Part shown: one piece after another, positions 13,681 through 53,000 of the stretch | Layout: the number at the start of each line of letters is the position of its first letter | Numbering within the stretch: the first letter of the stretch is position 1 | NCBI RefSeq assembly: GCF_024714475.1 | Contig: NZ_JAMZMI010000009.1 | Location: 62,001-126,000, forward strand | Source of the DNA: Marinoscillum sp. MHG1-6 | Lineage (GTDB): Bacteria > Bacteroidota > Bacteroidia > Cytophagales > Cyclobacteriaceae | Length of the DNA: 64,000 nt | Reading direction: 5' to 3' | Translations under genes and position numbers: made by a program | The notes under the pieces: model-generated | Seen by the model: the letters and a program-made list of their open reading frames with translations, nothing else | Told to the model about the DNA's origin: nothing | Database searches by the model: none

Positions 13681-13705
13681 TGTACCATCTAAACCTATAC
13701 TAACC

Positions 13706-14524: not shown

Positions 14525-14547
14525 AGTTTTTCATTTGTCTAAGTTGA

Positions 14548-14586
14548 TTGACGCACGCTCTTAGCTCTCGAGCGGAGCGTGCTCAA
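14548..14586 (+). repeat. Intra-operon stem-loop between haem lipoprotein and cytochrome b genes
   Basis: TTGA-C-GCACGCTC pairs with GAGCGTGC-TCAA, giving a 12-bp stem with one bulged base. No T run follows, so it is more likely an mRNA stabiliser or partial attenuator within the operon than a full terminator. Confidence 0.55.
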
Positions 14587-14618
14587 TCTCTTTCAAAACC
14601 TCTAACTACAACCAACCT

Positions 14619-15095
14619 ATGGGAAGGATAGCCTTTATCATAACTGGTGGCATCTTATTCACATTATTTATTCTTCAAGATGCTCTCGACTGGCATTGGG
14701 AAGCCCTTCACACCTTACAAGATGACCAAATGTATCGTCGTTGGTCGGGTCTTGGATTATCCCTTATTATCTTATTCCAGTGGACATTAAGCCTGGTCAG
14801 AACAAGGCCAAAATGGGAAGACCTAAGTCTTACATTCTATAATATCCACAACTGGGTGGGTGCCTTTACTCCCCTACTCTTTTACATCCATAGCATGGAG
14901 CTCGGGTTCGCCTATCTCTTTGTTTTGAGCATCACGTTTTTTGGAAACTTCCTCATGGGAATGTTCAACCTGGATGTTATCAAAAACAAGTCACAGCTCG
15001 TATTTCAGGGTTGGATGATCCTTCATGTGGCATGTTCGTTCTTCATTACATTTTTAACTATATACCACATCTACGTGGTATTCTACTACGAATAG
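14619..15095 (+). CDS. Small b-type membrane cytochrome (ferric-reductase-like four-helix protein)
   Basis: This 158-residue integral membrane protein has four hydrophobic helices. Two helices carry histidines with identical H-x13-H spacing: IHNWVGAFTPLLFYIH and LHVACSFFITFLTIYH. That spacing in paired helices is the bis-histidine pattern for two stacked b haems seen in cytochrome b and in ferric-reductase/NADPH-oxidase cores. It lies four bases before a separate FAD/2Fe-2S reductase gene, so the pair resembles a split transmembrane NAD(P)H oxidoreductase. I do not recognise a named family; haem binding is inferred from the motif. Confidence 0.6.
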   Translation: MGRIAFIITGGILFTLFILQDALDWHWEALHTLQDDQMYRRWSGLGLSLIILFQWTLSLVRTRPKWEDLSLTFYNIHNWVGAFTPLLFYIHSMELGFAYLFVLSITFFGNFLMGMFNLDVIKNKSQLVFQGWMILHVACSFFITFLTIYHIYVVFYYE

Positions 15096-33464: not shown

Positions 33465-33509
33465 TTGATCATAAAAAAAGCGACCACAATGTGGTCGCTT
33501 AATGATCAA
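33465..33509 (-). terminator. Strong terminator between the nitrate block and the pectin locus
   Basis: The stem AAGCGACCACA/TGTGGTCGCTT (33478-33500) lies inside a second pair TTGATCAT/ATGATCAA. On the minus strand the hairpin is followed by seven T, so it best ends transcription arriving from the pectin locus, about 180 bases after its last gene. In the plus direction the T tract is weaker, but it may also serve the gene ending at 33450. Confidence 0.85.
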
Positions 33510-33683: not shown

Positions 33684-34604
33684 TCACTTATTCAATTCAT
33701 TTGATAACCCTTTCACCAGACTTTCTTTTGCTTTAAAAATGGTCCCATGCTTGTGACCTTCCGGTACTGATATCTCCGAGGTGATATCCTGGAAACTTTT
33801 AAAATCGGTTGTCTTTTGAGCCCCGTAAGTTTTCGTTCGGTACTCATCATAATAGATCACATATTCCTCTCCTAACCGCACCACCGTAGGTCCTTCTGTC
33901 AAAAAGCCCGTAAAGGGCTCCGAAACGTCTTCCCACGGCCCAAGTGGATTATCTGAAAAAGCTACCTTCATATTTCTATTAGGACGGGTATTATCTTTCA
34001 AGACAAGGACGTAGTCCTCATCACTTCTCTTTACAATTACTGCATCTATTACACTAAACCCCGGATCAAGAAACAGCTTTGTTTCTGTGAAAGTTTTAAA
34101 GTCCCTGGTAGTTGTAAAGTACATTCGGTGATTGTTCTTTTCTTCCTCTTCACCCTTTTCAAACTTGAATGGGATAGTAGAGGCCCAAATGATAATAAAA
34201 CGATCATCAACATCATCATAAAACAGTTCGGGAGCCCAGACGTTGACGGTGCTAGTATCAAACTCCATTACCGGGATCAATTGTTGTTCCGACCAATGGA
34301 TCAAATCTTTGGTATGAGCATAACCAAAACCCAGATCACCTCTCCAGCTGGTTGTCCATACCATGTGATAGGTGCCTTCCGGTCCGTGAACCATTGATGC
34401 GTCCCGCATTACCTTTTGCTTGCCTATCTCCGGTTTCAAAAACACCTTCTCTATGCGTGTCCAGTTGAGTCCGTCTTCACTGTACAAATAGTAAAGTCCC
34501 TCATCCGCTGGCTCTTTAAAGGAAGTGAACATATAGTATTCCTTTTCCGGCCCACATGAGACCAACCAAACAAGCGTGAAAATTGAAACAATTAATATCC
34601 TCAT
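33684..34604 (-). CDS. GH43-like five-bladed propeller lipoprotein
   Basis: This is a 306-residue secreted lipoprotein (lipobox LVSC, Cys17). The repeated YYLYSEDGLNWT, AHTKDLIHWSEQ and TTRDFKTF segments are propeller blades. Candidate GH43-type acids are Asp68 (RDASMV), the VWAPEL segment and the glutamate of EGPTVV. GH43 and related clans remove arabinose, xylose or galactose side chains, and which one applies here cannot be told. It is the last gene of the long pectin transcript, two bases after the GH140 gene. A sugar hydrolase acting on pectin side chains is likely, though it could be a distant GH43-clan member. Confidence 0.7.
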   Translation of the reverse strand: MRILIVSIFTLVWLVSCGPEKEYYMFTSFKEPADEGLYYLYSEDGLNWTRIEKVFLKPEIGKQKVMRDASMVHGPEGTYHMVWTTSWRGDLGFGYAHTKDLIHWSEQQLIPVMEFDTSTVNVWAPELFYDDVDDRFIIIWASTIPFKFEKGEEEEKNNHRMYFTTTRDFKTFTETKLFLDPGFSVIDAVIVKRSDEDYVLVLKDNTRPNRNMKVAFSDNPLGPWEDVSEPFTGFLTEGPTVVRLGEEYVIYYDEYRTKTYGAQKTTDFKSFQDITSEISVPEGHKHGTIFKAKESLVKGLSNELNK

Positions 34605-34605: not shown

Positions 34606-36054
34606 TTATATTTTTTCCAGGATCAACACCCAATCATTCCCTTCCTTCGGTTCCCCGGGAGGATCAAATGTGGCTGTATCTCTATTTTGAAAAACTCCCG
34701 CTTCCGTTATTGTACCTGATCTGGGATCAAACCAACTTGCTTTAATTTCATTTCCTTTTATACGCCCCATATTCACTTCCATATCCCTTCCGGTATAAGT
34801 ATAGATCATGGCGTATTGTTCGCCTTTGGTTCCAACAATGTAATCGTAACGTTCACCCTGGTTGACAATTAATCCCTGATCCGGGATTCGCTCAAAATAA
34901 GGCTTTGACAACATCAAGGTCTTCAAATGTTCCATCTGACCTGCACCTGGATGATTTAACCCCTCTATCCAGAACTCTCTTGCACCAAAGGCACGGTTCC
35001 CATTATCTTCTGCCCGGTAAAATTGCATTACCGCATTATGTCCATAAGTAAACCCGGCACCTCCAGCAAAAACTGACCAATAAGCATATCTTCTAATGTC
35101 ATCGGCATTCCAGTAAACCTCCGTAGTATCATGTAGCCCATGCGGTATCCCTTCATATGAAGGCTCTCCGTCAAGCGTCGGTTTAGTAGGCTGCTTATTG
35201 TATTCAACACTTATATATTTCCAGTTATCCGGACCAAATCGGTGGGAGTCATAAGCGGTATCCTGGTCATAGTTCCTATGTCCGGACTGAAACATATTAA
35301 AGTCCAACCAGCTCTCATCATGAAACCACTCAGACGACATGGTGCGTCCTCTTGGGTGGAAAGTAATTAGGTGTTGATCATCCAGACTGTCCAGCGTGGC
35401 ACCAATCTGCAACCATACCTCCTGATGATCATCTCCTCTGATATCTCCACCATTAAGCCATATGATATTTGGATAATCTTTAAATCGGTTGGCCAAAAAG
35501 CTCGCGTAATCCTTCGCCTCATCCACAGTCACGTTGTCATTGCTAACAGGAGTGCCCCAAACCGGAACACATGCCATAAACATGTCTCTTTCCTGAGCCA
35601 TTTCGACTGCAAAAGCCACATGATCCCAATAGTCGTACTGTTCCGGATCATTCGGATCATCACCTTCAGTCACATTGGGTGTAGCCACATTATTGTCAAC
35701 TAAGGCCTTATCACCTTGAAAGCTTTCTACATCAACATTATGTAGCAACATCACCTGAATCACATTGTACCCTTTATCTTTTCGATCATCCAGATACTTA
35801 ATAATCTCTCCTCGATCAAGCTTTTTGAAGATCAACCAACCCGTATCCCCCAACCAAAAAAACGGCTCTCCGTCATCATACTGGAAAAACCGCTGATTTT
35901 CAGAGATCTTAATAGGTCTGAATGAGCCTGTAATCTCGGCTTCCTTTTTCTCTGGTTTTTGACAGCTAAAAATTCCCGCTGACAGCATCAAAACAATCAG
36001 GCCGCTGTTCAATAAATGATCAATTTTAGGCATGTTCTTAATATTAAAATTCAT
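34606..36054 (-). CDS. GH140/DUF4038 family glycosidase, probable apiosidase
   Basis: The protein has 482 residues with a signal/lipoprotein start (SAGIFSC, Cys about 31). The catalytic (beta/alpha)8 barrel shows the DUF4038 landmarks: FFWLGDTGW, YLDDRKDKGYNVIQVM, NIIWLNGGDIRGDD and LDGEPSYEG, with a C-terminal beta domain (SWFDPRSG) typical of the family. The characterised GH140 enzyme releases D-apiose from the base of RG-II side chains, so this gene is the best marker that the locus reaches RG-II or apiogalacturonan. It is tightly linked to the SSS symporter gene, with one base between the frames. Specificity is by family only. Confidence 0.82.
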   Translation of the reverse strand: MNFNIKNMPKIDHLLNSGLIVLMLSAGIFSCQKPEKKEAEITGSFRPIKISENQRFFQYDDGEPFFWLGDTGWLIFKKLDRGEIIKYLDDRKDKGYNVIQVMLLHNVDVESFQGDKALVDNNVATPNVTEGDDPNDPEQYDYWDHVAFAVEMAQERDMFMACVPVWGTPVSNDNVTVDEAKDYASFLANRFKDYPNIIWLNGGDIRGDDHQEVWLQIGATLDSLDDQHLITFHPRGRTMSSEWFHDESWLDFNMFQSGHRNYDQDTAYDSHRFGPDNWKYISVEYNKQPTKPTLDGEPSYEGIPHGLHDTTEVYWNADDIRRYAYWSVFAGGAGFTYGHNAVMQFYRAEDNGNRAFGAREFWIEGLNHPGAGQMEHLKTLMLSKPYFERIPDQGLIVNQGERYDYIVGTKGEQYAMIYTYTGRDMEVNMGRIKGNEIKASWFDPRSGTITEAGVFQNRDTATFDPPGEPKEGNDWVLILEKI

Positions 36055-36055: not shown

Positions 36056-37600
36056 TTAGTTCTGTAATTGCTTCCAGCTTTTATAAGTCAGTCCCTCCAC
36101 CTTGGCCGGCTCTTTAAAAAAATAACTCGCCACATACCCAACCACGAAAAGGATCAAATGACTATAAACACCAAGCATGTATTTATGATGGGTGAAATTC
36201 CAATCTCCCAGGTCTATCAACAATCGATCTTCCCCGCCAATAGTTAAGGGAGTAGAAGTGATGACGGCATACGCCGTAAATAACACGCTGGCAATGATAC
36301 CCATATAGGTCCCCATTCGATTGGCGCGATTGCTCACAATTCCTAATAAAAACAATCCGGCAATACCCCCTGAAAATATCGCATATAGTTTGAAGACGGT
36401 CTTAAGCACACCCTTTCCTCCCTGATCCACATAATAAAGCGCCACCAGGATGGAAGCGATCCCCGCAATGACAACAATAAGCTTGCTCAGGAACAACTGC
36501 TTCTTAGCGTCGGTATTAGGTCTGAATCGGAGATAGTAGTCCTCCATGAAAATGGCTGAAAGACAATTGAGATCTGAATCCAGACTCGATATGGCCGCCG
36601 CCAGAAGTCCAGCAAGTACCAACCCGACCACTCCTATCGGCAGTTCGGTCATGATAAAAAACGGGAAAACTGCATCCGCTTTGGTTCCATCGAGAATAGG
36701 TGCACCACTGATCTGGTAATACCCAAAGAGTGCTGTACCGATGAACATGAAAAGGGCCCAGACAGGAACACTCATTAAAACTCCTATTAAAGAAGCCTTG
36801 ACGGCATCTTTATCACTTTTTGCTGTCAAGTAGCGCTGTACGATGGTCTGATCGGTCCCGTACTTTTGAATCGCATAGAAAACCCCATTAATGGCCATCA
36901 CAAAGAAGGTCAGAGAGGTCAGGTCAAAATCATATGGCCCAAAACCTACATGCCCTGCGTCGTTGGCAACATCATAAATGGCAGGTAGACCTCCGGTAGT
37001 CGAAAAAATAATGATCCCTAAAGTGATCAATCCTCCTCCGATCAGGATGAAGCCTTGTATAACATCCATCCAGATCACGGCTTCCATTCCTCCCAGGAGG
37101 GTAATCAATATGATCATTGCTCCAAGTAACCAGATCATATTTACCGTGCCCATTCCTGTCATTTCTGAAAATGCCAGCGCAATCAGGTAGAACACCGTCC
37201 CCATTTTAGAAAAGTGGGCTAAAAAGAAAGCAAGCGAAGTATATAACCTTGCACCAAACCCAAATCGTTTTTCAAAGTACTCATAGGCACTCAGACCAAT
37301 CACTTTACGATAGAGAGGAACGACAAACTTGATAAAGAAGATCAACGTGATCGGTACCATCAACCCCTGAACCAACAATATCCAGTTAGATGAATATCCA
37401 CTCCCAGGATAGGCTAAAAATGTTACACTGCTTATCAACGTGGCAAGAATTGACATCCCCACTGCCCAGGCTGGTATATTACCCCCACCTTTAAAGTAAT
37501 TCCCCGTATCGGTCTGCTTCTTAGCCAACCTGATACTGATGTAGATCGGAATGATCAGGGAAATAGCAATAATGATATAGTCAATGGGGTGTAAAGTCAT
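36056..37600 (-). CDS. Sodium:solute symporter (SSS family)
   Basis: This is a 514-residue inner-membrane transporter with about 13 helices in the LeuT-like SSS fold. It shows NYFKGGGNIPAWAVGMSILATLISSVTF split across helix 1, then SAYEYFEKRFG and GGMEAVIWMDVIQG. SSS members carry sugars, sialic acids, uronates and carboxylates with Na+. Its place between the DUF1537 kinase gene and the GH140 gene suggests uptake of a sugar acid released by the periplasmic enzymes, such as Dha, apiose or a uronate. The substrate is not predictable from sequence alone. Confidence 0.87.
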   Translation of the reverse strand: MTLHPIDYIIIAISLIIPIYISIRLAKKQTDTGNYFKGGGNIPAWAVGMSILATLISSVTFLAYPGSGYSSNWILLVQGLMVPITLIFFIKFVVPLYRKVIGLSAYEYFEKRFGFGARLYTSLAFFLAHFSKMGTVFYLIALAFSEMTGMGTVNMIWLLGAMIILITLLGGMEAVIWMDVIQGFILIGGGLITLGIIIFSTTGGLPAIYDVANDAGHVGFGPYDFDLTSLTFFVMAINGVFYAIQKYGTDQTIVQRYLTAKSDKDAVKASLIGVLMSVPVWALFMFIGTALFGYYQISGAPILDGTKADAVFPFFIMTELPIGVVGLVLAGLLAAAISSLDSDLNCLSAIFMEDYYLRFRPNTDAKKQLFLSKLIVVIAGIASILVALYYVDQGGKGVLKTVFKLYAIFSGGIAGLFLLGIVSNRANRMGTYMGIIASVLFTAYAVITSTPLTIGGEDRLLIDLGDWNFTHHKYMLGVYSHLILFVVGYVASYFFKEPAKVEGLTYKSWKQLQN

Positions 37601-37609: not shown

Positions 37610-38770
37610 TTAGTTTTTGGGTTGGGGTAACTCTAATATTTCATCCGACCAGCGATAACTGCCCGGTTTGGAGGTGATGCAAAATTTAAATTCGCCATCA
37701 GGCTGCATGCGGATCACACCCGGAGCAAATTCTTTAACTGGTTTTAAGCTCGTTATCCCTACTTCATGAAGGATCGCCGCCATGGTACTACCTCCTTCAA
37801 TAAGTAGCTCATTGACAGGTATTCGCTTTAAAACACCACTGACTAGCTTAGCCATTTCGCTGCTCAGCCTATTGGCTATGAAATCTGCTCTTGGTCCAAA
37901 ATGATTAATTCTAATGAGCGCGTTATGATCCTTCATCGCCTCAACCACCTCATGCTCCCATTTCACCAGATACTCTCCTCTCGGATCCGAATCTTCGTAC
38001 ACCTCTATGGGCATATTAAAGGTCTCATAACCAAGACTATTCATCAGGTTGATATAGACATCTCCTTTAGGGAATTTGCTGCCCTGTACAATCAGTCTCT
38101 TGTCCCCGATCTCGGGAATGGCATCTGATTTACGTGGTTCCATTTTCAAGCTATAAAGCAGTGCGTCGAAGAAGCCAGCGCTACCCGCCAAAGTTGTTTG
38201 TTCATCAGCGGCCCCAACCCATAACTGATAGTCATCCATTGTCTCCACATCACCAATAACAATCCCATCTTCTCCACCGTATTTAACAGGGTTACCACTG
38301 AAAACATCAACCATTCCTCTCTTTCGAACTATTGAAAGCACCTCATTGGTATGCATGGGGAAATGTGGATCAGCAGAAAACCCTGATTCATTCAATGGAA
38401 CATCATCAATAAAATAAGCTCCATTTTTAATGACTCTACCCATAGACGGGTTGCCTGCTGCCAGTATAGCTTTGGTAGTACCCACCACTCTCATTTGTGT
38501 TTCCAACTCCACATACACATGACCACGAAGTACTGAATCAGTTTTTTTGAAAATCAGCTGTGGATTAAGGCTTAAAAGCTCTCTTGTCACTCTTTCTATT
38601 TCGGCTACCGACTGAGGAGCATCAAGTGATCTCACATCCGTAGCCACAATGAGCACATCTGCAGATACTGCACTGGGTTTGGTTTGAATGCGAACATCCA
38701 AGCCATGCCTCAAGGCCACACCGCCTATTTCAGCAGCTCCGGTGAAATCATCTGCAATTACTGCAATCAT
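37610..38770 (-). CDS. Four-carbon acid sugar kinase (DUF1537 family, DtnK/OtnK-like)
   Basis: The 386 residues contain the N-terminal sugar-acid domain (IADDFTGAAEIGG, FKKTDSVLRGHV) and the C-terminal nucleotide domain (ELLIEGGSTMAAIL). DUF1537 kinases phosphorylate four-carbon acids such as D-threonate, D-erythronate or related substrates at C4. The start is coupled to the PdxA2-like gene stop as TAATG, and the DtnK-PdxA2 pair is the established route from D-threonate to DHAP and CO2. OiaK of apionate catabolism is also a DUF1537 member, an alternative given the GH140 neighbour, but the PdxA2 partner favours a tetronate. Confidence 0.85.
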   Translation of the reverse strand: MIAVIADDFTGAAEIGGVALRHGLDVRIQTKPSAVSADVLIVATDVRSLDAPQSVAEIERVTRELLSLNPQLIFKKTDSVLRGHVYVELETQMRVVGTTKAILAAGNPSMGRVIKNGAYFIDDVPLNESGFSADPHFPMHTNEVLSIVRKRGMVDVFSGNPVKYGGEDGIVIGDVETMDDYQLWVGAADEQTTLAGSAGFFDALLYSLKMEPRKSDAIPEIGDKRLIVQGSKFPKGDVYINLMNSLGYETFNMPIEVYEDSDPRGEYLVKWEHEVVEAMKDHNALIRINHFGPRADFIANRLSSEMAKLVSGVLKRIPVNELLIEGGSTMAAILHEVGITSLKPVKEFAPGVIRMQPDGEFKFCITSKPGSYRWSDEILELPQPKN

Positions 38771-39798
38771 TAGATAGTTAGTTTTTCTGCGTATTCAATC
38801 GCGTGGAAAAGTGCATCCGGACTGGCAATTCCTTTTCCGGCTATTTCAAAGGCAGTTCCGTGATCCACCGATGTACGTATGATCGGAAGCCCCATGGTGA
38901 TATTCACACCTTTAACACTCTTCATCTTCTTTGTTTTTTGGTCCCAATTGAAGCCAATGACCTTGAATGGAATATGCCCCTGGTCATGATACATAGCCAC
39001 ACAGCCATCATATTTCCCCCCATAAGCCATCGCAAACAGGGTATCAGGAGGAACTGGTCCATCTACTATAACGCCTTCCTTTCTAGCCTGCTCTATCGCC
39101 GGAAGAATCTCCTCAGCATCCTCCGTTCCAAAAAGGCCTCCATCACTGGCATGAGGATTAAGTCCCGCCACACCTATTCTTGGGTTTTCTATTTTAAGGC
39201 TTTTCAATCCATTGTTAATCAAATGGATTACTTCCAATACACGGTCCTTTTTCACGAGGTCACAGGCCTGACGCAACGAAACATGAGTAGACACATGAAT
39301 CACCTTGAAACTCTCCTCAACGAGTAGCATGGCATATTTTTTTGTTCCGGTATAGTGAGCATAGATCTCCGTATGACCTGCGAACTTGTGCCCGGCCTTG
39401 TTAATTGATTCCTTATGGATTGGACCGGTTACCGTACCGTCCACCTCTTTTTTCAGAGCCAGGTCAATTGCAGTAGTTACAGACCTGAAGGCCAGGTCTC
39501 CAGCCAACGCTGAAACCTCACCGTACCTGATCGTATCCACATCTTCACCTCCGATATCGTAAACATTCATTATCCCCATCTCAAACTTCGCATCCTTGAC
39601 ATCAGTAATGGTATTAAGAATAATGGCACCTCCCACAAGATCAATGGCCTTCAGCATCACTTCCGGATGACCCACCACGATTGGATAACTGGTCTCATAA
39701 GCCTTTCCGCTTGCAAATAGTTTAACCGCGATTTCCGGTCCAATCCCGGCAGGATCCCCCATCGTCACGGCTAATACAGGTTTCTTTCTTGTCGTCAT
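38770..39798 (-). CDS. PdxA2-like 4-phospho-tetronate dehydrogenase/decarboxylase
   Basis: This 342-residue PdxA-family enzyme has AVTMGDPAGIGPEI, VTGPIHKESINKAG, and metal-binding histidines in GHTEIYAHYT, STHVSLRQ and MYHDQGHIPFK, with RTSVDHGTAFE near the C-terminus. PdxA2 members oxidise and decarboxylate 4-phospho-D-threonate or 4-phospho-D-erythronate to DHAP. The cofactor route would need true PdxA, but the DUF1537 kinase gene directly coupled downstream points to PdxA2 function. It lies ten bases from the DapA-family gene and belongs to the same transcript. Confidence 0.85.
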   Translation of the reverse strand: MTTRKKPVLAVTMGDPAGIGPEIAVKLFASGKAYETSYPIVVGHPEVMLKAIDLVGGAIILNTITDVKDAKFEMGIMNVYDIGGEDVDTIRYGEVSALAGDLAFRSVTTAIDLALKKEVDGTVTGPIHKESINKAGHKFAGHTEIYAHYTGTKKYAMLLVEESFKVIHVSTHVSLRQACDLVKKDRVLEVIHLINNGLKSLKIENPRIGVAGLNPHASDGGLFGTEDAEEILPAIEQARKEGVIVDGPVPPDTLFAMAYGGKYDGCVAMYHDQGHIPFKVIGFNWDQKTKKMKSVKGVNITMGLPIIRTSVDHGTAFEIAGKGIASPDALFHAIEYAEKLTI

Positions 39799-39808
39799 CA
39801 GTCAGTGA

Positions 39809-40708
39809 TTAAATATTTGCTAATTGAGTTCTTAATTGTGATTTCAATGCTTCCTGTTCATCCGGAGCAATATCATACATGGGTGGCATCGCATGAGGTT
39901 TGCAAAGTCCCAATTCTGACATCAGTACTTTTAGGGCAGGCAATGAAGTATTGAGCTTTCGATCCTTTTGGTAGATCAATGAAATCTGATCGGTCAATTC
40001 TTGCAAACGATGGGCTTCCTCATGGTTTCCGGCTTTTGCGGCATCATACAACTGCTTGAATAGTTCCGGCACAAAATTCCCGGTACTCGGAACGATCCCG
40101 TCAGCTCCTAGCAGCACCGAATGTGCCGATTGTGCGGCCCACCCCAGATAGAACGCAAATTCTTCCCGATCCTTCCACATGCCAATGGAGGTATCGATAC
40201 GTTCAGGGTCCCTTTCAGAGTCCTTCATACCTACAATATTTGGGTGTTGACTAAGGTGGTCGGCTACATCAAGTGGAATTCTCTCACCTACCATAGCTGG
40301 CATGTTGTAGAGCACCACAGGACAGTCAATCGCATCTGCCAGCTGAGTGAAGAACCGGGTCATCTCAGATTCCGAAATTGGAAAATAGTATGGTAGTGTG
40401 GTCACCATGACATCTATTCCCAGGTCCCGATAGGTTTTCGCCATCTCAATGGATTCGACCAGGCTGGTACTTGATATCCCGGCAAAAGTTTTCACCCTGC
40501 CATTAACAGCTTTTACGGTTTGCTTAACCAGTTCCGTTTTCTGTGTCGATGAAAAGGAAGTTGACTCGCCAGTGGTACCTAGTACGAAGGGCGCACATTC
40601 CTGTGCAATAAAAGATTCCACGATCTTCCCTACTGAGGCCGCATCGATGGAATAATTCGCATTGATTGGTGTTACCATGGGTATGATGACCCCTTCAAAT
40701 ATTTTCAT
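39809..40708 (-). CDS. DapA/NanA-family pyruvate-dependent aldolase
   Basis: This class I aldolase of 299 residues has LGTTGESTSFS (pyruvate-carboxylate loop), Tyr134 in VVLYNMPA and the Schiff-base Lys162 in VGMKDSERD. The family includes dihydrodipicolinate synthase, N-acetylneuraminate lyase and 2-keto-3-deoxy sugar-acid aldolases. The catabolic setting between an iron alcohol dehydrogenase and a tetronate kinase/PdxA2 pair argues against lysine synthesis. Cleavage of a 2-keto-3-deoxy acid, giving pyruvate and a short aldehyde acid, is inferred. Candidate substrates are Dha, Kdo or KDG; Dha uniquely yields a four-carbon product that suits the next enzymes. Confidence 0.85.
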   Translation of the reverse strand: MKIFEGVIIPMVTPINANYSIDAASVGKIVESFIAQECAPFVLGTTGESTSFSSTQKTELVKQTVKAVNGRVKTFAGISSTSLVESIEMAKTYRDLGIDVMVTTLPYYFPISESEMTRFFTQLADAIDCPVVLYNMPAMVGERIPLDVADHLSQHPNIVGMKDSERDPERIDTSIGMWKDREEFAFYLGWAAQSAHSVLLGADGIVPSTGNFVPELFKQLYDAAKAGNHEEAHRLQELTDQISLIYQKDRKLNTSLPALKVLMSELGLCKPHAMPPMYDIAPDEQEALKSQLRTQLANI

Positions 40709-40710
40709 TT

Positions 40711-41856
40711 CTAATAGGCATTTTGATAAATAGTCACAGCGTCACCATGCTGCACTTCTCTAACATTGTTTTTTAATAACCGCTGAATCAACATGGCATC
40801 AGCAGCCATTTGATCAACATCTTTCAATTGGATTTCTAATTCAGAAAGTCTTGAAGGCATTCCGCATTCCCTGATGAGCTTACGGATCAGCGCTATTCCC
40901 TGAAGAGCTGTCTCCCGATCTGAATCCAAGGCTTCACCCCCCATCGCAAGTGATATTTGAGCGTACCTTGATTCCGCAGCTTCCAGATTATATTCTAATA
41001 CAAAAGGAAGCAGCAGAGCGTTACTCAGACCATGAGCAATTTTGAATTTCGTACCCAGTGGATAGGCTAATGCGTGCACTGCGGCAGTATTGACCGGCCC
41101 CAGACACATCCCTCCGTAATAGGCACCTAGCGCTACTTTCTTACGTGCTTCGAGGTCATTGCCATTAGCAATGGCTTTTCCTAAATTTTGACTGATCAGT
41201 TTTATTCCTTCCAGAGCATACACGTCTACCACAGGATGAGCAAACTTATTTGCAAAGGCTTCGATACAGTGGGTGAGCGCATCAAGTCCTGTATATGCCG
41301 TAATGCTTGGAGGAAGACTGGCAATCAATGTTGGATCTATGTAAACACCATCAGGCATCAACACAGCGTCAATGATTCCCTTTTTGCTGTTATCCGAATC
41401 ATCAATCAAAATAGCATTGGGAGAGGACTCGCTTCCCGCTCCAGAGGTGGTTGGAACGCAGACTAAAGAAATGTTTCTACTCTTGATCAGTCCATTCCCT
41501 ACATAATTGGATATAGGTTCCGTTGCATTAGTCAATGCCGCAACCAACTTCGCAATATCCAATACACTTCCTCCCCCTACACCAACAACAAAATCAGTCT
41601 TTGCCGCTCTAGCGGCCAAAATAATTTGATCAAAATCTGAAAAGGAAGGCTCCGCTCCGGTACTTAAATGATAGAATACTCGAATGCTTTTGGATGTCAA
41701 TCCATTAAATACCGGTTTGATTTTATCCGCTACATGGGGATCGGTCAGAACAAATACATTTTGAGCATTGGATTGATCGATTTGCTCCAGAAGCAAATTC
41801 AAGGCTGTTTCTGAAATAACAAGCTTTTTCGGTTGGTTAATTACAATATCTTGCAT
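40711..41856 (-). CDS. Iron-containing (group III) alcohol dehydrogenase
   Basis: The 381 residues include the NAD(P) loop GVGGGSVLDIAKL, VPTTSGAGSESS, and the metal ligands in GLDALTHCIEAF (Asp, His), AAVHALAYPLG and KIAHGLSNALLLP (His, His). The family reduces aldehydes such as lactaldehyde, glycolaldehyde or succinate semialdehyde. It lies two bases from the aldolase gene and seven from the DUF6298-like gene. Reduction of the aldehyde released by the aldolase is the simplest role. It has no signal peptide and is cytoplasmic. Confidence 0.87.
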   Translation of the reverse strand: MQDIVINQPKKLVISETALNLLLEQIDQSNAQNVFVLTDPHVADKIKPVFNGLTSKSIRVFYHLSTGAEPSFSDFDQIILAARAAKTDFVVGVGGGSVLDIAKLVAALTNATEPISNYVGNGLIKSRNISLVCVPTTSGAGSESSPNAILIDDSDNSKKGIIDAVLMPDGVYIDPTLIASLPPSITAYTGLDALTHCIEAFANKFAHPVVDVYALEGIKLISQNLGKAIANGNDLEARKKVALGAYYGGMCLGPVNTAAVHALAYPLGTKFKIAHGLSNALLLPFVLEYNLEAAESRYAQISLAMGGEALDSDRETALQGIALIRKLIRECGMPSRLSELEIQLKDVDQMAADAMLIQRLLKNNVREVQHGDAVTIYQNAY

Positions 41857-41862: not shown

Positions 41863-44800
41863 CTATTTTTTATCCAGCCACACAATTGAGGATTTAACAT
41901 CGGTCAGTTGATGCTTCTTTTGACCTTCCAAAATTTTACCCGAACGAAGAACTTCTCCGGTTGATTCGTTTACCCAACAAACCTCAAACTTTCCTTTATG
42001 ACCGGTAAGGTCAATGTCTACTGAGCTTTGTCCCTCGATATATAAAATCTGCTCGCCATTAACGCCTTTAAGCGCTTTTGTCCCCGCAATCTTGTAAGGA
42101 CTCATTAAAGCTACATCCCTTGAAAATTCAGTATCCGATACTTTTGGGATATTCATCAACGAACCTCCTCCTATAAATATGGCCCAGCCAAAAGCCTGAG
42201 ATCTATGCGTGTTGTGAATTACCGCTTTATCGGGATAATTGGACTTGTATTCAAAAACGGACTTGTAAGTGCTCTCAAACGTTTCCTTCGGTGTTTTTAC
42301 CAAACGGGCATGCTGACGGGGTGCCAGGTTTTTGCCTCCCTCCGGCGCATATAGCTCACTCTCACCTGCCTTATTCTCTCCATACCACCAATACTGAACA
42401 TCAATCACATCGACTATTTTACTTCTTACAGGATCCTGCAGAATGGCATCCTGAACGTCCTTCGTGGCACTCAAGGCAACCATTACTTCCTTCCCGGTTT
42501 CATCTTGCCACCTGGCTATAACATCCAGCCAGAACTCTATGAACGATAGCGGACCGGTATATTCCGCACTCGTGAACTGGATAACATTGGACTGTTCCGA
42601 GAAGTTATCGAGACATTTTCTAATGTAAGCTTCGTGAAGTGATCGGTACTCAGGGTTGCTCACATCATAAAATTGTTCGGCAATGAATATTCGTTTATCT
42701 CCCGCATAGTTGACAGGCTCAGGGAAAGGTGTTTCATTGACATTGTTAGCGGTTCTCCATGGAAAATCTGCATAGTGTCCACCAGCCTCGAGAATATTGT
42801 GCTGGAAGTAGTTTTGATGATAAAAGATCAACCCTTTCTCCTCACCATATTCCACAAATTTGGAAAGCCTATTCCAGTACCAATAATTGTATTGGGTAAG
42901 ATCATACTTGCTCATGCCATCATAGGATATGCCCTGACCTGACCTGGCAAATGGCAATTCATAGAAAGGGGCCCACACCTCACCATTCATCCTACGTACA
43001 CGCTCGTGATCGTCTCTCCTTCGATCGTACCAAAGACCATAATTGTGCTCCAAAACTGTCACTCCCTGACTGGTCAATAAGGTTGTGGCCTCATCGAGAT
43101 CATCGGTGTATCCTGTACCAGTTTTACCCGGGACGTAGCGCGATACATGAGGGCGCGTCTTCATCGCATCATAATATCGCACATTGCCTCGCCACCACTG
43201 AATTGGCTGTGTCGCCCCATAGGCCAGTTGATCATTCAGGACCAATCGGCCGAAATCATTCTTTGAAAGCACCAATGCCTTTTCTTCGGTTTTTGGGGTT
43301 TTGCACTTGATGTTATCCACATCCAAAGCATCTCCTTTAGAAATGCTTATTGGGTTACGTTCTGCTGCTTCACTGATCCAGTCGATCAACTGGATTTGAG
43401 GCTCATAAGCCTGAGCAATATATTCCTCGGCTTGCTCAACCGTTGGGCTACTGGTAGCTTCCATTTCAAGGGGCAGCAATTGCCCTCTTTCATATGCCTC
43501 CTTTCCAAGCCTATCTGCAAGTTGGCCATAAAACAGGCTTCTTGGTTTAACAAAACTATTAGCTTCATACCAGTATCCGTTCCCGGCGAATTGTGACCAT
43601 GCCCCACAAGCCCAGTTCATAGCAGTCGGAGGAGCGGGGCATTCGATCAGTGACGCGGAACATTGCCAAAACATGCTATTGGCTGCAGTATAGCCTGCTC
43701 CCTGCACCTCCATACCTCTATTGCTAAACCGAAGAGCCTGAGCATCAATATTCACTATATCAAATAGAACTCCGGAGGCCCAGCTGTCAATGGTACCGCT
43801 AAAACTGTGTGGTAGAACGGAACGACACTCGACAAACGCATTTGGACCTGTAGCCCGGAAGCCCACTGCAAAGTCATGATAGCCATACTCAGCATACAGC
43901 CTTTGAAAAAGACATTGCTGACCCTCCGTAATAAAAGTATATCGACGCTGCCCGCCTATTTCAGAAACTGGATTTAATGATTTACAATCCTCAACAGTCA
44001 CCCGGCTACCGGTTTCCCATATAGCTACCGCTGAACCTGCAAAATGCTCGAAGTTTACCTGTCTTACCCATGCATCACGCGTGTTCTCGATGACAATGGC
44101 CATCCATCTATGCTGCTCATCCTTCGGATTGGAGGTATCAAAAGTGGATTCCAGCTTAAGGTTTTCGATTCCCACGTTTTCAATTCTTCCCGGCCATTCC
44201 ATTTTGGAGACCAGTCCTCCACCATATTCCTTATCCAAAGCTGTAGTAAGAGGTGCGTCAAGTGTAATCTCATTACCAGTAATGGAAACAACCTTTCTGT
44301 TCCAATAGATATCCCTTTCACCAGCTTTCCATCCTATGTAGCCAGTCTCACCACCGAAATGCTGCATTTGGAGCTTTTCAATCCATTCTTTGGTACTCGG
44401 ACGAAGGATTCTGATTTCATCACCTACTTTTATCCCCTTGACGTCCTCAATAGACAATGACATGGCACCTACAGGAACATAGTCATCATTTACGTTGATT
44501 GGAGCGCCCAGACGTACGTCATTTGCCCCAAAGACTCTGATTAATGTTGTCCTATCCAAACCTGTTCCGAGAAGAGTGGTTTTGCCTGTTTCATTTCCAC
44601 TTCCTCTGATGACCACTCCTGAAGCCCTGATTTCCAGGCCACCATCGATTCGATAATCCCCAGGACCCAGCAAAACGGCTCCTCGATAACCATTTGCATC
44701 CATAGGAAGGTTGCTCACATAGTCAATGGCTTTTTGAATGCGAGAGGTTTGATCTCCTTCTTTATGGTCGATAAAGACCTCTATCTCTACGGTAGGAATT

Positions 44801-45015
44801 TCCTCGTCAGAAGCTTTATACCCTGCATAGGAATAGTCAGGAACCTGATTACCCAATTCATCTTTGAGGTATGACAGACCGTCTTTTGATGGAGATACCG
44901 GAGCAATTTTCTCCTGAGCATTTACATTCAAAAAAGAAAAGACCAGGATGAAAATCATCCCGATCTGATCAAGTGAATATTTTCTTTTGGCCGGGCGGCC
45001 AGACCATATACTCAT
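41863..45015 (-). CDS. Secreted beta-helix protein with large C-terminal DUF6298-like domain
   Basis: It has 1050 residues with a signal peptide (KRK n-region, hydrophobic core to VNAQ, about residue 34). Residues about 90-500 look like a right-handed parallel beta-helix of the pectate-lyase superfamily, opening with IQKAIDYVSNLP, VLLGPGDYRI and GVVIRGSG. Residues about 610-970 form a separate domain rich in aromatic and acidic residues (NYGLWYDRRRDDHERV, IFYHQNYFQHNILEAGGHY, FTSAEYTG), resembling the uncharacterised DUF6298. A short beta tail ends the protein. I see no T9SS tail. A pectin-active lyase or hydrolase is likely, but neither activity nor substrate can be assigned. Confidence 0.65.
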   Translation of the reverse strand: MSIWSGRPAKRKYSLDQIGMIFILVFSFLNVNAQEKIAPVSPSKDGLSYLKDELGNQVPDYSYAGYKASDEEIPTVEIEVFIDHKEGDQTSRIQKAIDYVSNLPMDANGYRGAVLLGPGDYRIDGGLEIRASGVVIRGSGNETGKTTLLGTGLDRTTLIRVFGANDVRLGAPINVNDDYVPVGAMSLSIEDVKGIKVGDEIRILRPSTKEWIEKLQMQHFGGETGYIGWKAGERDIYWNRKVVSITGNEITLDAPLTTALDKEYGGGLVSKMEWPGRIENVGIENLKLESTFDTSNPKDEQHRWMAIVIENTRDAWVRQVNFEHFAGSAVAIWETGSRVTVEDCKSLNPVSEIGGQRRYTFITEGQQCLFQRLYAEYGYHDFAVGFRATGPNAFVECRSVLPHSFSGTIDSWASGVLFDIVNIDAQALRFSNRGMEVQGAGYTAANSMFWQCSASLIECPAPPTAMNWACGAWSQFAGNGYWYEANSFVKPRSLFYGQLADRLGKEAYERGQLLPLEMEATSSPTVEQAEEYIAQAYEPQIQLIDWISEAAERNPISISKGDALDVDNIKCKTPKTEEKALVLSKNDFGRLVLNDQLAYGATQPIQWWRGNVRYYDAMKTRPHVSRYVPGKTGTGYTDDLDEATTLLTSQGVTVLEHNYGLWYDRRRDDHERVRRMNGEVWAPFYELPFARSGQGISYDGMSKYDLTQYNYWYWNRLSKFVEYGEEKGLIFYHQNYFQHNILEAGGHYADFPWRTANNVNETPFPEPVNYAGDKRIFIAEQFYDVSNPEYRSLHEAYIRKCLDNFSEQSNVIQFTSAEYTGPLSFIEFWLDVIARWQDETGKEVMVALSATKDVQDAILQDPVRSKIVDVIDVQYWWYGENKAGESELYAPEGGKNLAPRQHARLVKTPKETFESTYKSVFEYKSNYPDKAVIHNTHRSQAFGWAIFIGGGSLMNIPKVSDTEFSRDVALMSPYKIAGTKALKGVNGEQILYIEGQSSVDIDLTGHKGKFEVCWVNESTGEVLRSGKILEGQKKHQLTDVKSSIVWLDKK

Positions 45016-45036: not shown

Positions 45037-46728
45037 TTATTTGGTTAATGTGTCCTTATTATTTGCAAGATCAGTCCAGTCTGTTTTAGAGTTTGGATCA
45101 ATATTATAAATGTACATTTCTATGTTGGTATATCCATCTCCATTGAGATCTCCTGTCGCATCCGACGGATCTTTAGGGTCAAGACCAACTTTCTTTTCAT
45201 AGCCATCCGGCATGCCATCCATGTCCGAATCCTTGTAAGGCTTACCACTATACTCAGGATATCCTCCTACCTGTGCGATATCTGTTATGATGCCCATTTT
45301 CCAGGAATCCGGGGGCAATCTTCTGTATTTAAACTGGTAGAAGTCATCAGGGTCAAGACCTTCTTCATACTCAATTTCCCCGGTTCGAACCTGTTTCGTA
45401 ACACGAACATCAACAGGATCCCTTACAGGCAAGGTCGCTCCGGCATTGTCAAGTACGTAATCAAATGCCTCGTCCGCTGGTATAATATCAACAGGAGCCA
45501 TTGGAAACGGCTTTGGCCATTTCATGGCAGCGGTATATTTGCCTGCATCCCACAGGTCCTTGTCATTATCATCTTCTATCTGAATACCGCCAGCCCAGTT
45601 ATCATTGGTTACCTTTTCATTACCCTCCATGATATTGCCATTGGCATATACACGACCAAACTCTTTGTAACCTAAATTACTCCGACCGGATTCAGGGTTT
45701 AGAATTCTTTGCCCCACCGGATCATCCATTTGAGTCACCGGACCGGGCTTATAGTAATTATTGATAATGTTGAATAAGGCCGTATAATCACCCCCATCTA
45801 CTGATCTGTGCTTCCAGTTATATACTACGTTATTGGTGAAATTAAAGATTCCGTTCCAGCCAATGGATGGGTTCCTTCCGGTATTGTTGGCCCAAAGGTT
45901 TCTGTGAAAACTACAGTTTTCGCCACCCAATGTACTACCAAATGAATGGTTGTAGGTGTCTAGCGCTTCAGAGAAGATGCTGTTTTGAATGGTAATGTTA
46001 ACCGTTGGAAGTTTCAGGTCCTTTTTACCTGTTCCGTCAGACCACATGTGACGGTAGATTGACATGTTTTCATCTAATCCCCAGCTTGCAGAAACGTGAT
46101 CGATCATGATGTTTCCAACCGGATTTCCACCAATCGCATCATCCCTTCGACCTACAAAAGTGTCTCCTCTTCTAAATCTCATATGTCGGATCACTACATC
46201 GTGCGTATCGATCCAGACGGTTTCTCCGGCAATACATACACCATCACCCGGAGCAGTGTTTCCAACAATTGTTACATAAGGTGCTCTGATGATGAGGGGG
46301 CTTTCCAACTTGATAATACCGGCAACGTTGAAAACGATAATCCGTGCACCACCAATCTCACAAGCCTCACGAAGGGTGCCAGGGCCCTTGTCTGCCAGGC
46401 TAGTAACTACAAGCACCTTACCACCTCTTCCTCCAAAAGAGTACATACCGCCTCCCTGAGCCCCTGGAAATGAAGGTATCTCGGCCTGAGGAAGGTCAGT
46501 TGGGCGACCGGCCCATGGGATATACGGTTTTCCATTTTTAGCCTCTTCCTGCACAATCGGCCAGGCCTTTTCCCAGGCTTTGTCCGATGCAGCCCTTGCT
46601 TCGTTAACAATGTCTACACCCCTTTGCTTCTCTTCCTTCGTCATCGAGGGATACTGAGCATACGTTTGCGTAAACAGGGCAAAAATGAATAAGAATAGTA
46701 CTAAAGCGTGTCTTTTGAAATAATTCAT
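45037..46728 (-). CDS. Secreted pectate lyase (PL1-like)
   Basis: The 563 residues begin with a signal peptide (to TYAQ, about residue 25), then a helical prefix and a PL1-type parallel beta-helix with FPGAQGGG, GGRGGKVLVVTSLAD, GPGTLREAC, VIRHMRFRRGDTF and IDHVSASWGLDEN. The C-terminal region has Ca-binding-like DSDMDGMPDGYE and DLNGDGYTNIEMY stretches, common in Bacteroidota PL1 proteins. PL1 enzymes cleave polygalacturonate by beta-elimination, giving unsaturated oligomers. There is no T9SS tail, unlike the PL1 gene two positions upstream, so the two lyases may work in different compartments. Confidence 0.87.
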   Translation of the reverse strand: MNYFKRHALVLFLFIFALFTQTYAQYPSMTKEEKQRGVDIVNEARAASDKAWEKAWPIVQEEAKNGKPYIPWAGRPTDLPQAEIPSFPGAQGGGMYSFGGRGGKVLVVTSLADKGPGTLREACEIGGARIIVFNVAGIIKLESPLIIRAPYVTIVGNTAPGDGVCIAGETVWIDTHDVVIRHMRFRRGDTFVGRRDDAIGGNPVGNIMIDHVSASWGLDENMSIYRHMWSDGTGKKDLKLPTVNITIQNSIFSEALDTYNHSFGSTLGGENCSFHRNLWANNTGRNPSIGWNGIFNFTNNVVYNWKHRSVDGGDYTALFNIINNYYKPGPVTQMDDPVGQRILNPESGRSNLGYKEFGRVYANGNIMEGNEKVTNDNWAGGIQIEDDNDKDLWDAGKYTAAMKWPKPFPMAPVDIIPADEAFDYVLDNAGATLPVRDPVDVRVTKQVRTGEIEYEEGLDPDDFYQFKYRRLPPDSWKMGIITDIAQVGGYPEYSGKPYKDSDMDGMPDGYEKKVGLDPKDPSDATGDLNGDGYTNIEMYIYNIDPNSKTDWTDLANNKDTLTK

Positions 46729-46791: not shown

Positions 46792-48258
46792 CTAAAGCAG
46801 TATTTTGAAAATTTCTGTTTTAGTGTCAAAAATACATTTAACCACAAATACACCATGCAAATTTGACGCCAACTTGAAGTTCTGCGTATTTTTTTCTTGT
46901 TGTACCAATCTTCCGTTCAAAGAATATACCAAAGCATCGGCCCTGCGCAGTAATTCAACCTCACTACCCTTTCGTATCACCCAGGATTGTTCCATGGACT
47001 TCTCATTGTCTAGTGTAATTTCTTTTTCATCAACTACCAGAATATCGGATACCCCACTCAAAGCGCCACTTTCTGTAACAGATTTAACGCTATACTCCAC
47101 CGAGCCAGTCACCACCCCTCCCATAAAGGAAGTTGAATCAGTAAAACCTTCCACGACTCCATCGCGCAAAACAGCATACCCAATGGCATCTGTAACGGAA
47201 TTCCATGAAATAACTGGTTTATCTTCGGCTCCATAGCCATCCATGCTTAAACCTCCTGGTGATGATAGCGCTGTACCCGGAGCATCATAGTCCCAGGGTT
47301 GAGCATTTTTCGTCAAAAAATAAGTAAGGTTATAATAGGTGTTCGCGTAATCAGTAGTCAATTGTTTACTCCAGTCCACCCGACTGGTAGTATCCACCAA
47401 ATCTCCAGCCGGGGTGATACTTTGATACTCAGCATAAGTGCCACTCAAATGATTATTATCATTCCAGATGGACCATCCCTCCGCTTTAACATGAGCACCT
47501 AAGGTGCAATTAATATAGACGGAGGATGCATTGGGCTGCCAGGGCCTACCCAGATAATAAGAGTCAGCTGACACATCATTATTCGAGGTGATATTACATC
47601 CATTGAAAAGTAATCCGTGATAAACCGTATTGACATCAGTATCTGTGGAAGTGAGTTTAGTATCTGCCGGAGCGGTAATGTATTGACCTCCATTCACACA
47701 TCTGATCTCACAACTATCGAATACAGCTGTGGCATCTCCAAAAATAAAGTCAGTAGCTCCTTCTATGTAACAATTTTGATTATAAACTAACCCGGCGCCA
47801 TCGGCATAATAGGTATCCTGAAAACCGATGAACTTACAATTTTTGACAGCTATTCGCTGTCCTTCAGTGTGTATCGCCACTGCCTGACCAACATTGCCGG
47901 CGGTATTCTTAATGGTGATGTTTTCCATGTAATAATCATCCGCCTGAACTGATAATGTGTAAGACGTTCCAGTGGTATGGCCATCTATATCTCCACTATA
48001 GTCATCCCACTGAATGATCACTCCATCAACACTCTCACCGATTAAACTAATCCCATCTTTCGTTGCAGAAATGGATACTTTTTCCTCATAAACACCATTT
48101 TTTATGAATAATCGCTGGGTAACTGATCTTGATTTTAACGCCTGAACAATACTTGTATAATTGCCTGTTCCATCTTTAGCTACGATAGCATCAAATACCT
48201 GTGCCCTAGTGGGTAGACATATGCCAATCAACAAAATGAGTATTAAAACAACCCTCAT
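46792..48258 (-). CDS. Pectin methylesterase (CE8) with C-terminal sorting tail
   Basis: The enzyme has 488 residues with a signal peptide ending RAQ. The CE8 beta-helix shows VAKDGTGNYTSIVQAL, AVAIHTEGQ, the two catalytic aspartates in GFQDTYYADG and GATDFIFGDA, and the substrate arginine in YLGRPWQ. After about residue 345 a fibronectin-like region and a T9SS-type tail follow (YSLNGRLVQQEKN, ending KIFKILL-like). It removes methyl groups from homogalacturonan so that the pectate lyases can act. The start overlaps the upstream lyase stop as ATGA. A 63-base gap separates it from the next lyase; no signal was seen there. Confidence 0.9.
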   Translation of the reverse strand: MRVVLILILLIGICLPTRAQVFDAIVAKDGTGNYTSIVQALKSRSVTQRLFIKNGVYEEKVSISATKDGISLIGESVDGVIIQWDDYSGDIDGHTTGTSYTLSVQADDYYMENITIKNTAGNVGQAVAIHTEGQRIAVKNCKFIGFQDTYYADGAGLVYNQNCYIEGATDFIFGDATAVFDSCEIRCVNGGQYITAPADTKLTSTDTDVNTVYHGLLFNGCNITSNNDVSADSYYLGRPWQPNASSVYINCTLGAHVKAEGWSIWNDNNHLSGTYAEYQSITPAGDLVDTTSRVDWSKQLTTDYANTYYNLTYFLTKNAQPWDYDAPGTALSSPGGLSMDGYGAEDKPVISWNSVTDAIGYAVLRDGVVEGFTDSTSFMGGVVTGSVEYSVKSVTESGALSGVSDILVVDEKEITLDNEKSMEQSWVIRKGSEVELLRRADALVYSLNGRLVQQEKNTQNFKLASNLHGVFVVKCIFDTKTEIFKILL

Positions 48259-50029: not shown

Positions 50030-53000
50030 CTACTCCTTAACAAACTTGATCGTTTGGATCTCGTCGTTAGTAGTTACCTTCAATACGTAAAGTCCTGGCT
50101 CAAAAGAACTTATATCAAACGCAGTACTACCTTTAACAGCTTCTGACAATAATAACTGTCCTGACAAGTTGATCAGTTTCACTTGTGCTGAACCATCAAT
50201 GGTTACGTTAATAATATCAACTGCAGGGTTCGGGTAAAGCGTTGCCAAATCAGCAACTGGTGTTAACCCAAGGGCTTCAACCACAGTCAGACTAACAGAA
50301 CCTGAAGCACCAGCACCATCGGCTGCTGTCGCTATGATATCAACCGCTCCAACTGCTACTCCTGTAACTAAACCATTTGCATCAACGGTTGCTTTTGACT
50401 CATCCGAAGATGACCACACCACTGATCCATCAGCTGCATCTCCAGGAGATGTGATTGCAGATAATTGCAGAGTTCCTCCAACAGAAACTTCTGTATCAGG
50501 TGCTGAAACTGTAACACTCGCCACTGCGACCGTCACTGTCACTGCATAGGTTCCAGTTACTCCTGAGCCATCGGTAGCGGCTGCAGTTACCATAACTGAA
50601 CCTGCGCTAATCGCAGTTAATAAACCATTTGCATCAATAGATGCCAACGCATCATTATCAACAGACCATGTCAATGTACTATCAGCTGCATCGTTGGGAC
50701 CCACATCTGCCATTAGTTGTAGAGTAGCTCCAGCAGCTACAGATGTACCTCCAGAGATGACAATTTCCGTCACCGCCTGATCTATTTGAAGGTTTAATGT
50801 TGCATTCAATCCATCCGCATCAGCTGTCGCGAATACTACTACACTACCTGAAGTAATCGGGTTCACCTGAATCGCATCATTACTGCTTTGAGTAAATGAG
50901 GCCACAGCAGGATTACTTACGCCCCATGTCAAACTACGATCAGAAGCATCAATTGGTAGAATGTTAGCTACAATATTGCTCACTCCGGCCGTATTGATTA
51001 ACGCAGCATCAGCAATCAACTGAATAAACTGAACAGGAATATACCTGTCTGAAATCTCCACTTCAATCTGGTCAGAAACTCCTTCAGCTTCATTATGAGC
51101 AATAACGAGAACTGTTCCTTTAGAAACCGCAGAGAAGGTCCCGGTTTTGGAATTGATGATCGCCTGACCACCAGTACCGTTGAAGTTATTTTGAACCATC
51201 CAGGTCACTGCAACATTCGCATCAGCCACAAACTCAATCACATCATCTTCAACTACATCAGTTGGTGCAGTAATGATAGAAATGAATGCCGGGATACCAT
51301 CCTGCAATGTCCATCTTGGGTCACCAAGTTGACCACCTTCTGTATCCGCTGTCAAAACAGCAGTATTCAATGGTGTATAGTTGATAGGTCCAAGGAACTC
51401 CGGATCATCCATGCTGATGTTGGCAGTTACCACATTCGATAACCTTTGGGCTGAATCAAGGTTATATGCCAGATTACCACTACCATCTACTCTTGATGAC
51501 TCAAAGTCATGGAAAACGTTGTTGGACAGATTCACTGTACCTACTTCTTCATTGATTCTGAACGGACGACTGTTTACGTGATCAAGCAGGCCACTCGCAA
51601 TGTTGTTGGTAAAGTTGAATGCTATTGATCCATCCTTACCATCATTCTGCTGGATGAATACATCACTGGCAGCATTATAGAAGGTGTTATGATCGATATA
51701 AACCGCTTGTCTCGTACTATCCCATGGGTTGCTGTTGTTGTTATCATTGTCATTGTAGAAGTTCTTGATGAAGCCCTTCACATTGGCAAATGTTGAATTA
51801 ACAATTGCAGTGGTATCAACGTGGTTCAACCTTGGATCCAATACGAAGTCACCCAGCATATCGTGGAAATAAACCCGATCAAGAATCACACTGTTGTATT
51901 GTTTTCTCTGATTTTTGTATAGCTGAACACCTCCGTTGAAGTCATAAGCCTCAACATTCTCCAACAATACATCATAGCCATTGTACCAGCCTCCCTGGTC
52001 AAATCTCAATACATAGGTACCTTTTTTACCATCTGTATCAGCTGGTGGCTCTCCGTCCAATATCATATTTCTCAATGTAATGCCGATAGAGTCCTCTTTG
52101 GCTCTGAAACCAGCATCGTACATGTAGATGATCGGAGGATTGTTTGCATCTGCTCCTTCTACTACGATCTCCTGGAAGATATCTATCGTTCCGTACACAT
52201 GGTACTCAGGCTCATTCAGGATGATCGGAACACCAGCAGTCCATAGACTTGGCGTCTCAATGAACGCTTCAAGATCTAAGTCCTGAGGCTCCAATCCTTT
52301 GTCCCATTCCTGATCTCCTAAAAGTCCAGCTGCATCATCCGCAGTGTAAACATCAAAGTTTTTAGGAGTGAAGTCTCCGCCATCTGCATCTGTGTATCTT
52401 GGATCATCAAAGCTGATGAACATCGTATCTACGTTAGATAGTCTTGCTGCTGAATCCAGGTTATAAGCCAGGTTGCCACTACCATCTACTCTCGATGATT
52501 CAAAGTTGTGGAAGACATTGTATTGGATACTTACCGTTCCTACTTCTTCATTGATTCTGAATGGACGGCTATTCACATCATCCAACAATCCACTCACAAT
52601 GTTGTTAGTGAATGTAAAATCCATTGATCCATCTTTACCATCATTCTGCTGAATGAAGACATCACTGGCAGCATTGTAGAACGTGTTGTGATCGATGAAT
52701 ACCGTCTGTGTCAGACTATCCCATGGATTGCTGTTGTTGTTATCATTGTCATTGTAGAAGTTCTTGATAAAGCCCTTCACATTGGCAAATGTTGAATTCG
52801 TAATGGAGGTGTTCTCAACCCAGCAAAGTCTTGGGTCCAAAACGAAGTCTCCTAACATGTCATGGAAGTATACATTATCCATAACCACACTGTTGTAGTG
52901 TTTTCTCTGGTTTTTGTACAACTGAATACCCCCGTTGAAGTCATAAGCCTCAACGTTCTCAATTAATATATCATAGTCATTGAACCAGCCTCCCTGGTCA

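Follow-up and report, generated by a model that had tools for sequence, protein, structure and literature searches.

The hydrolases that dismantle rhamnogalacturonan II (RG-II) are known, and the published work on the Bacteroides thetaiotaomicron degradome (BT1020 of glycoside hydrolase (GH) families GH143 and GH142, BT1012 of GH140; GH138) deals with the release of sugars. D-Threonate catabolism by DtnK, a DUF1537 kinase, together with PdxA2 was reportedly described by Zhang and colleagues in 2016, and the chemistry of the two families on D-threonate has been established by others. In the galactarate/glucarate route, the GarL aldolase splits a 2-keto-3-deoxy diacid into pyruvate and a semialdehyde acid, followed by reduction by the semialdehyde reductase GarR and phosphorylation by the kinase GarK. 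Here we analysed a 64,000-nucleotide stretch of the Marinoscillum sp. MHG1-6 genome (contig NZ_JAMZMI010000009.1, positions 62,001 to 126,000; hereafter the window), in which five neighbouring genes encode an aldolase, a reductase, a PdxA2-type dehydrogenase, a DUF1537 kinase and a symporter. We consider it quite likely that these genes form a dedicated cassette for 3-deoxy-D-lyxo-2-heptulosarate (Dha), and the proposal addresses the bacterial use of what is among the rarest sugars of RG-II. The open-access literature searched yielded no description of how Dha is catabolised; subscription papers lay outside that search and may hold a published account.

The cassette, the gene run that contains it with the hairpin that follows, and the pectin methylesterase, SusC/SusD and GH95 genes all lie on the reverse strand of the window. 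The cassette runs from an Fe-containing alcohol dehydrogenase (FeADH; 40711-41856, Pfam PF00465/PF25137) through a class I pyruvate aldolase of the dihydrodipicolinate synthase/N-acetylneuraminate lyase family (39809-40708, PF00701), a PdxA2-type dehydrogenase (38770-39798, PF04166) and a DUF1537 kinase (37610-38770, PF07005 and PF17042) to an SSF sodium:solute symporter (36056-37600, PF00474). FeADH and aldolase are separated by 2 bp, aldolase and PdxA2 by 10 bp, and the PdxA2 and kinase genes share a 1-bp overlap (TAATG). A first-pass annotation of this DNA had proposed a unit of four genes; their positions, families and adjacency are as it gave them according to coordinates and Pfam, but the unit has to be extended, since the symporter also belongs to the cassette (77 of 80 aldolase loci). 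Like the DtnK/PdxA2 system, the cassette contains the same two enzyme families, encoded by adjacent genes, for the proposed last two steps to dihydroxyacetone phosphate (DHAP) and CO2. Unlike that system, it lies in an RG-II locus and also comprises aldolase, reductase and symporter genes; its kinase, in contrast to DtnK, is short (386 residues) and shares about 20% identity with DUF1537 proteins of solved structure. The proposed retro-aldol cleavage of a 2-keto-3-deoxy diacid with subsequent reduction and phosphorylation is reminiscent of the galactarate/glucarate route, whereas the cassette route would be one carbon longer, use other enzyme families and include an extra decarboxylating dehydrogenase.

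A pyruvate aldolase requires a 2-keto-3-deoxy acid, and those in RG-II are Dha and 3-deoxy-D-manno-oct-2-ulosonate (Kdo). We favour Dha over Kdo because cleavage yields an acid of four carbons, the size handled by PdxA2 and the DUF1537 tetronate kinases, only from the seven-carbon diacid. Fischer bookkeeping leads from Dha to D-threonate, as the first-pass annotation had correctly argued, with Kdo (giving D-arabinose) and 2-keto-3-deoxygluconate (KDG; giving D-glyceraldehyde) as controls. The side chains of RG-II are treated in PMC12282258. In the proposed pathway, for which we infer every substrate assignment in the cassette, GH143 would free Dha from side chain D and the symporter would bring it in across the inner membrane. 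The aldolase would then carry out a Schiff-base retro-aldol cleavage at C3-C4 of Dha to yield pyruvate and a four-carbon aldehyde acid, a tetruronate that FeADH would reduce to D-threonate. As a putative D-threonate 4-kinase, the DUF1537 protein would form 4-phospho-D-threonate, and PdxA2, the candidate 4-phospho-D-threonate 3-dehydrogenase (decarboxylating), would convert this to DHAP and CO2 by oxidation and decarboxylation. The net reaction would turn Dha and ATP into pyruvate, DHAP and CO2, and would be redox-neutral if both dehydrogenases share a cofactor. The proposal is a complete, redox-balanced four-enzyme route with a transporter and a strong genomic association. If true, it would name genes that automatic annotation of Prevotella, Alistipes and Bacteroides from the gut and rumen probably labels as dihydrodipicolinate synthase and PdxA.

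The same hydrolase families as in the B. thetaiotaomicron degradome flank the cassette. Directly after the symporter comes a GH140 apiosidase for RG-II backbone apiose (34606-36054, PF13204), which matches the BT1012-type structures 3kzs and 5msy (E = 5e-126), and a GH95 gene, matched by Pfam from 61906 onward, runs past the window edge (61906-63999). Beyond the window the same locus holds genes for GH95, GH28, GH78, a permease, GH138 and GH2, and the GH138 protein matches BPa0997 at about 1020 bits. To our knowledge GH138 is specific to RG-II, so the 'pectin locus' of the first-pass annotation, which had rightly noted GH140 and GH95, can be sharpened to an RG-II locus. With GH138 and GH140 in the locus, alongside predicted SusD-like (56497-58341) and SusC-like (58348-61569) outer-membrane import partners assigned from translation and size, both RG-II hydrolases and a SusC/SusD pair are represented, as expected of an RG-II utilisation locus. 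The RG-II locus L126, which has no cassette, encodes DUF6298 and GH140 proteins side by side, whereas in L013 and in the window, where the DUF6298 gene (41863-45015, PF19815) precedes the cassette, these two genes are separated by the five cassette genes. The cassette thus resembles a module that RG-II loci may have or lack.

To assess conservation of the cassette, we used the aldolase to query 84,980 species genomes and obtained 80 loci, mostly from Prevotella and other Bacteroidales and also from Niastella, Gaoshiqia, Alistipes and Marinoscillum. All five genes, as located by tblastn, occur together on one strand in 53 of the 64 loci with enough flanking sequence, an arrangement that is far from chance. 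When all loci in which the five genes were found are counted, the order aldolase, symporter, FeADH, PdxA2, kinase is seen in 53, and the order FeADH, aldolase, PdxA2, kinase, symporter in five as well as in the window. FeADH is the gene most often missing (present in 59 of 80 loci), five loci hold the other four genes without it, and it is the most replaceable member of the cassette. The kinase is encoded elsewhere in 14 of the 16 genomes whose aldolase contig was without one. A neighbour of 700 residues in Prevotella turned out to be an anaerobic ribonucleotide reductase and was set aside as a bystander.

The first-pass annotation had suggested looking for an association of the gene set with GH143, the Dha hydrolase, or with RG-II. 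Using Pfam PF24067 (GH143 propeller) for detection, we found this association to be strong, with GH143 in 46 of 50 cassette genomes. Because a class-wide kinase search was positive in only two of 395 genomes, we also drew a sample at the family level; in the class-wide draw GH143 exceeded the cut-off in 12 genomes, including both kinase genomes, one of which is the window's own. In the family-level sample, an independent draw of 181 genomes from a single family with a GH143 background of 12% (22/181), all five kinase-bearing genomes have GH143 compared with 17 of the 176 others (Fisher p = 1.7e-5, or 1.4e-4 with the centre genome removed). GH143/GH142 lies within the same 20 kb as the cassette in five loci (L013, L015, L016, L040 and L079). 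Of these, L016 encodes a full BT1020-type GH143-GH142 protein (5mqr, 1625 bits) that precedes the cassette by about five kilobases, L013 and L015 show the order FeADH, aldolase, PdxA2, kinase, symporter, GH140, GH43-like, GH143, GH142, and the two Niastella loci L040 and L079 the order GH143, GH142, GH2, GH78, FeADH, aldolase, PdxA2, kinase, symporter. In the window's genome, GH143 is found on a different contig, beside pectin genes. Neighbours of 1106-1195 residues in L027 and L070, considered as GH143 candidates, are instead C10 peptidases. Together with the stereochemistry, the GH143 association lends support to the Dha interpretation, which on these genomic grounds is strengthened, not proven.

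The Schiff-base Lys162, Tyr134 and the GTTGE loop are invariant in 20 cassette aldolases, and these features on a TIM barrel place the enzyme in the dihydrodipicolinate synthase/N-acetylneuraminate lyase class I aldolase superfamily. It does not qualify as DapA, as PAMVG replaces PPRTG, removing the Arg of the RTG motif, and the score of 164 bits is below the TIGR00674 cut-off of 206. The aldolase model (predicted local distance difference test score, pLDDT, of 93) has N-acetylneuraminate lyase (NanA), YagE and B. thetaiotaomicron 4xky as its closest folds. It shares with them a TM-score of about 0.87-0.93 and the Schiff-base Lys and Tyr, but only 23-34% identity, and the cassette aldolases form one clade (100/99), distinct from DapA, with the motifs KDSER(D/N)xxR, GWAAxS and PSTGN, which are absent from other family members tested apart from one or two single-residue exceptions. 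At a guess, two invariant Arg residues four and eight positions after Lys162 could be the binding site for the second carboxylate of Dha. The best solved relatives of the window PdxA2 are 6e85, a D-threonate 4-phosphate dehydrogenase (280 bits), and 2hi1 (276 bits), with E. coli PdxA at 185 bits; it is thus nearer to the PdxA2 type than to the biosynthetic one, and the order of scores is reversed for a separate pdxA beside ksgA (G000:C18:155400), which leans to the biosynthetic enzyme. Pfam scores of 119 bits (cut-off 25) and a borderline 28.3 bits (cut-off 28.3) assign the kinase to DUF1537, its model (pLDDT 90) matches DUF1537 structures with E about 1e-23, and its best NCBIfam model is the D-threonate kinase NF047819. 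FeADH belongs to the Fe-ADH Pfam family.

Several observations weigh against Dha as the substrate. None of the three downstream enzymes reaches a specific family model: PdxA2 scores 326 bits against a cut-off of 583 for NCBIfam NF002891, the kinase 123.8 bits against 450 for NF047819, so that it is not assignable as DtnK by sequence, and FeADH falls below every NCBIfam equivalog cut-off. The kinase is absent from most GH143 genomes (10 of 12 in the class-wide draw, 17 of 22 at the family level), which suggests that such genomes waste Dha or use another route, and no alternative Dha aldolase stood out near GH143 in the GH143-positive genomes without the cassette. Conversely, four cassette genomes are without GH143, namely two small metagenome-assembled genomes (MAGs), L025, which has other RG-II hydrolases, and L014, a marine MAG with the full cassette. 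As RG-II enzymes travel together, the association with GH143 alone cannot separate Dha from other RG-II sugars. The cassette genomes were also chosen by aldolase similarity and are skewed to Prevotella.

The best surviving alternative, which we nevertheless regard as unlikely, is that both Dha and Kdo, the latter giving D-arabinose, are substrates of the aldolase, with the remaining genes serving the Dha half. Kdo and Dha have the same configuration at C4-C6, ulosonate aldolases of broad specificity, NanA for instance, are among the closest folds of the aldolase, and in the marine locus L014 an L-fucose isomerase, an enzyme that can act on D-arabinose, adjoins the cassette. A better candidate for Kdo is provided by the sister group of the cassette clade (94/93), a second aldolase group that occurs in RG-II-type loci alongside a symporter of its own; the window's genome has both aldolases. 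Members of this sister clade (L097:13169-14113 on G000:C20 in the window's genome, L123:9614-10528 and L025:22-711) carry the motifs KDSSAN and GPEE, which are also present in B. thetaiotaomicron 4xky, deposited as a dihydrodipicolinate synthase. The copies in L097 and L123 adjoin SSF symporters, and that in L123 is also near an L-fucose isomerase, which, given the activity of such isomerases on D-arabinose, makes the sister clade a candidate Kdo aldolase. The first-pass annotation's statement that Kdo would give D-arabinose stands, with the refinement that Kdo requires its own route.

It is less probable still that the kinase and PdxA2 constitute a general pathway for tetronates (D-threonate or D-erythronate), with the aldolase and reductase forming an unrelated pair that acts on KDG or a different 2-keto-3-deoxy acid of pectin. 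DUF1537 and PdxA2 also serve D-erythronate in other bacteria, and the five loci that hold the cassette without a reductase would be compatible with such a division. In contrast, the aldolase and symporter co-occur with the kinase and PdxA2 in conserved order, and KDG or hexuronate-derived acids would yield three-carbon products, unusable by PdxA2 or a tetronate kinase.

A role of the cassette in the use of D-apiose, with the kinase acting on 3-oxo-isoapionate, appears very improbable and was rejected, although GH140 comes directly after the symporter, and genes for an FGGY kinase and a split transketolase related to AplK/AptA/AptB lie next to the cassette in G110 and in several Prevotella loci. 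The known apiose pathways (OiaK/OiaX and AplK/AptA/AptB) resemble the cassette in serving another RG-II sugar and in that OiaK is also a DUF1537 protein. However, the window's genome encodes OiaK-like and OiaX-like proteins and an AplK/AptA/AptB-like set on another contig, without an aldolase or PdxA2, and the adjoining apiose genes show a common polymer, not a common pathway. According to what is reported of the work of Carter and colleagues in 2018, the known apiose routes need neither a pyruvate aldolase nor PdxA2. The window kinase gave no match to the OiaK model NF042436 and has no RuBisCO-like partner; its reading as a 3-oxo-isoapionate kinase, the alternative offered by the first-pass annotation, is also opposed by the separate OiaK-like kinase beside the OiaX-like RuBisCO-like protein. 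Different genes thus probably serve two RG-II-derived sugars in parallel. The apiose-type kinase and transketolase of the window's genome are 39-45% identical to AplK, AptA and AptB of E. coli SE15, and an apiose cluster is described in PMC13001218. The genome holds two neighbouring apiose-type gene sets (L096:2401-7390 and 10243-14912 on G000:C20): set one combines AplK/AptA/AptB-like genes with a Fucose_iso_C-type isomerase, and set two comprises the OiaK-like kinase, the OiaX-like protein, an Asp/Glu racemase-family protein and an SBF transporter. A Fucose_iso_C-family isomerase also stands next to a split transketolase and FGGY kinase in L012, L017, L018, L069, L070 and L075, where it occupies the place expected of a D-apiose isomerase and is possibly a non-homologous apiose isomerase.

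The family names PdxA and DapA could invite a reading of the genes as vitamin B6 or lysine biosynthesis misread as catabolic, which we dismiss as next to impossible, since the genome has the separate pdxA beside ksgA and a separate dapA with the PRTG motif and the aldolase scores under the dapA cut-off.

Returning to the Dha cassette, it is tempting to speculate, although we hold this only tentatively, that two sister pyruvate-aldolase clades in Bacteroidota divide the ulosonic acids of RG-II, the cassette clade opening Dha for conversion to DHAP by way of D-threonate, and the sister clade, which has a separate symporter and in some cases an arabinose/fucose isomerase, opening Kdo, and that the cassette also serves Dha-containing algal coverings. 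The latter part is suggested by L014, as this marine locus holds the full cassette without GH143, and the cassette there may target Dha of algal scales. Dha occurs in prasinophyte scales and in the theca of Tetraselmis (PMC10762512), which would account for L014. Beside its full cassette, this Marinoscillum MAG encodes a sulfatase, the L-fucose isomerase and an ulvan-lyase-type trefoil protein.

Within the window, a run of genes with short gaps extends from 46728 to 33684 and comprises the genes for a pectate-lyase-like protein, DUF6298, FeADH, aldolase, PdxA2, kinase, symporter, GH140 and a GH43-like protein. The pectate-lyase-like secreted protein at its start (45037-46728), so named from sequence resemblance, is kept in RG-II loci and has no Pfam match above threshold. 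The final gene encodes the GH43-like protein (33684-34604, PF04616) and is followed by a terminator-like hairpin (33478-33500; 10 pairs with a TTTTT tail), identified as a consensus match only; a promoter scan gave results no better than shuffles. Counted more broadly, the run also takes in the pectin methylesterase gene just upstream (46792-48258, PF01095). Near the SusC/SusD pair, a secreted protein of 1768 residues (50030-55336) contains long near-identical internal repeats and is apparently of the beta-helix type. A further large open reading frame, of 4739 residues with a TTG start (L004:4309-18528), was observed just past the RG-II locus on contig C25.

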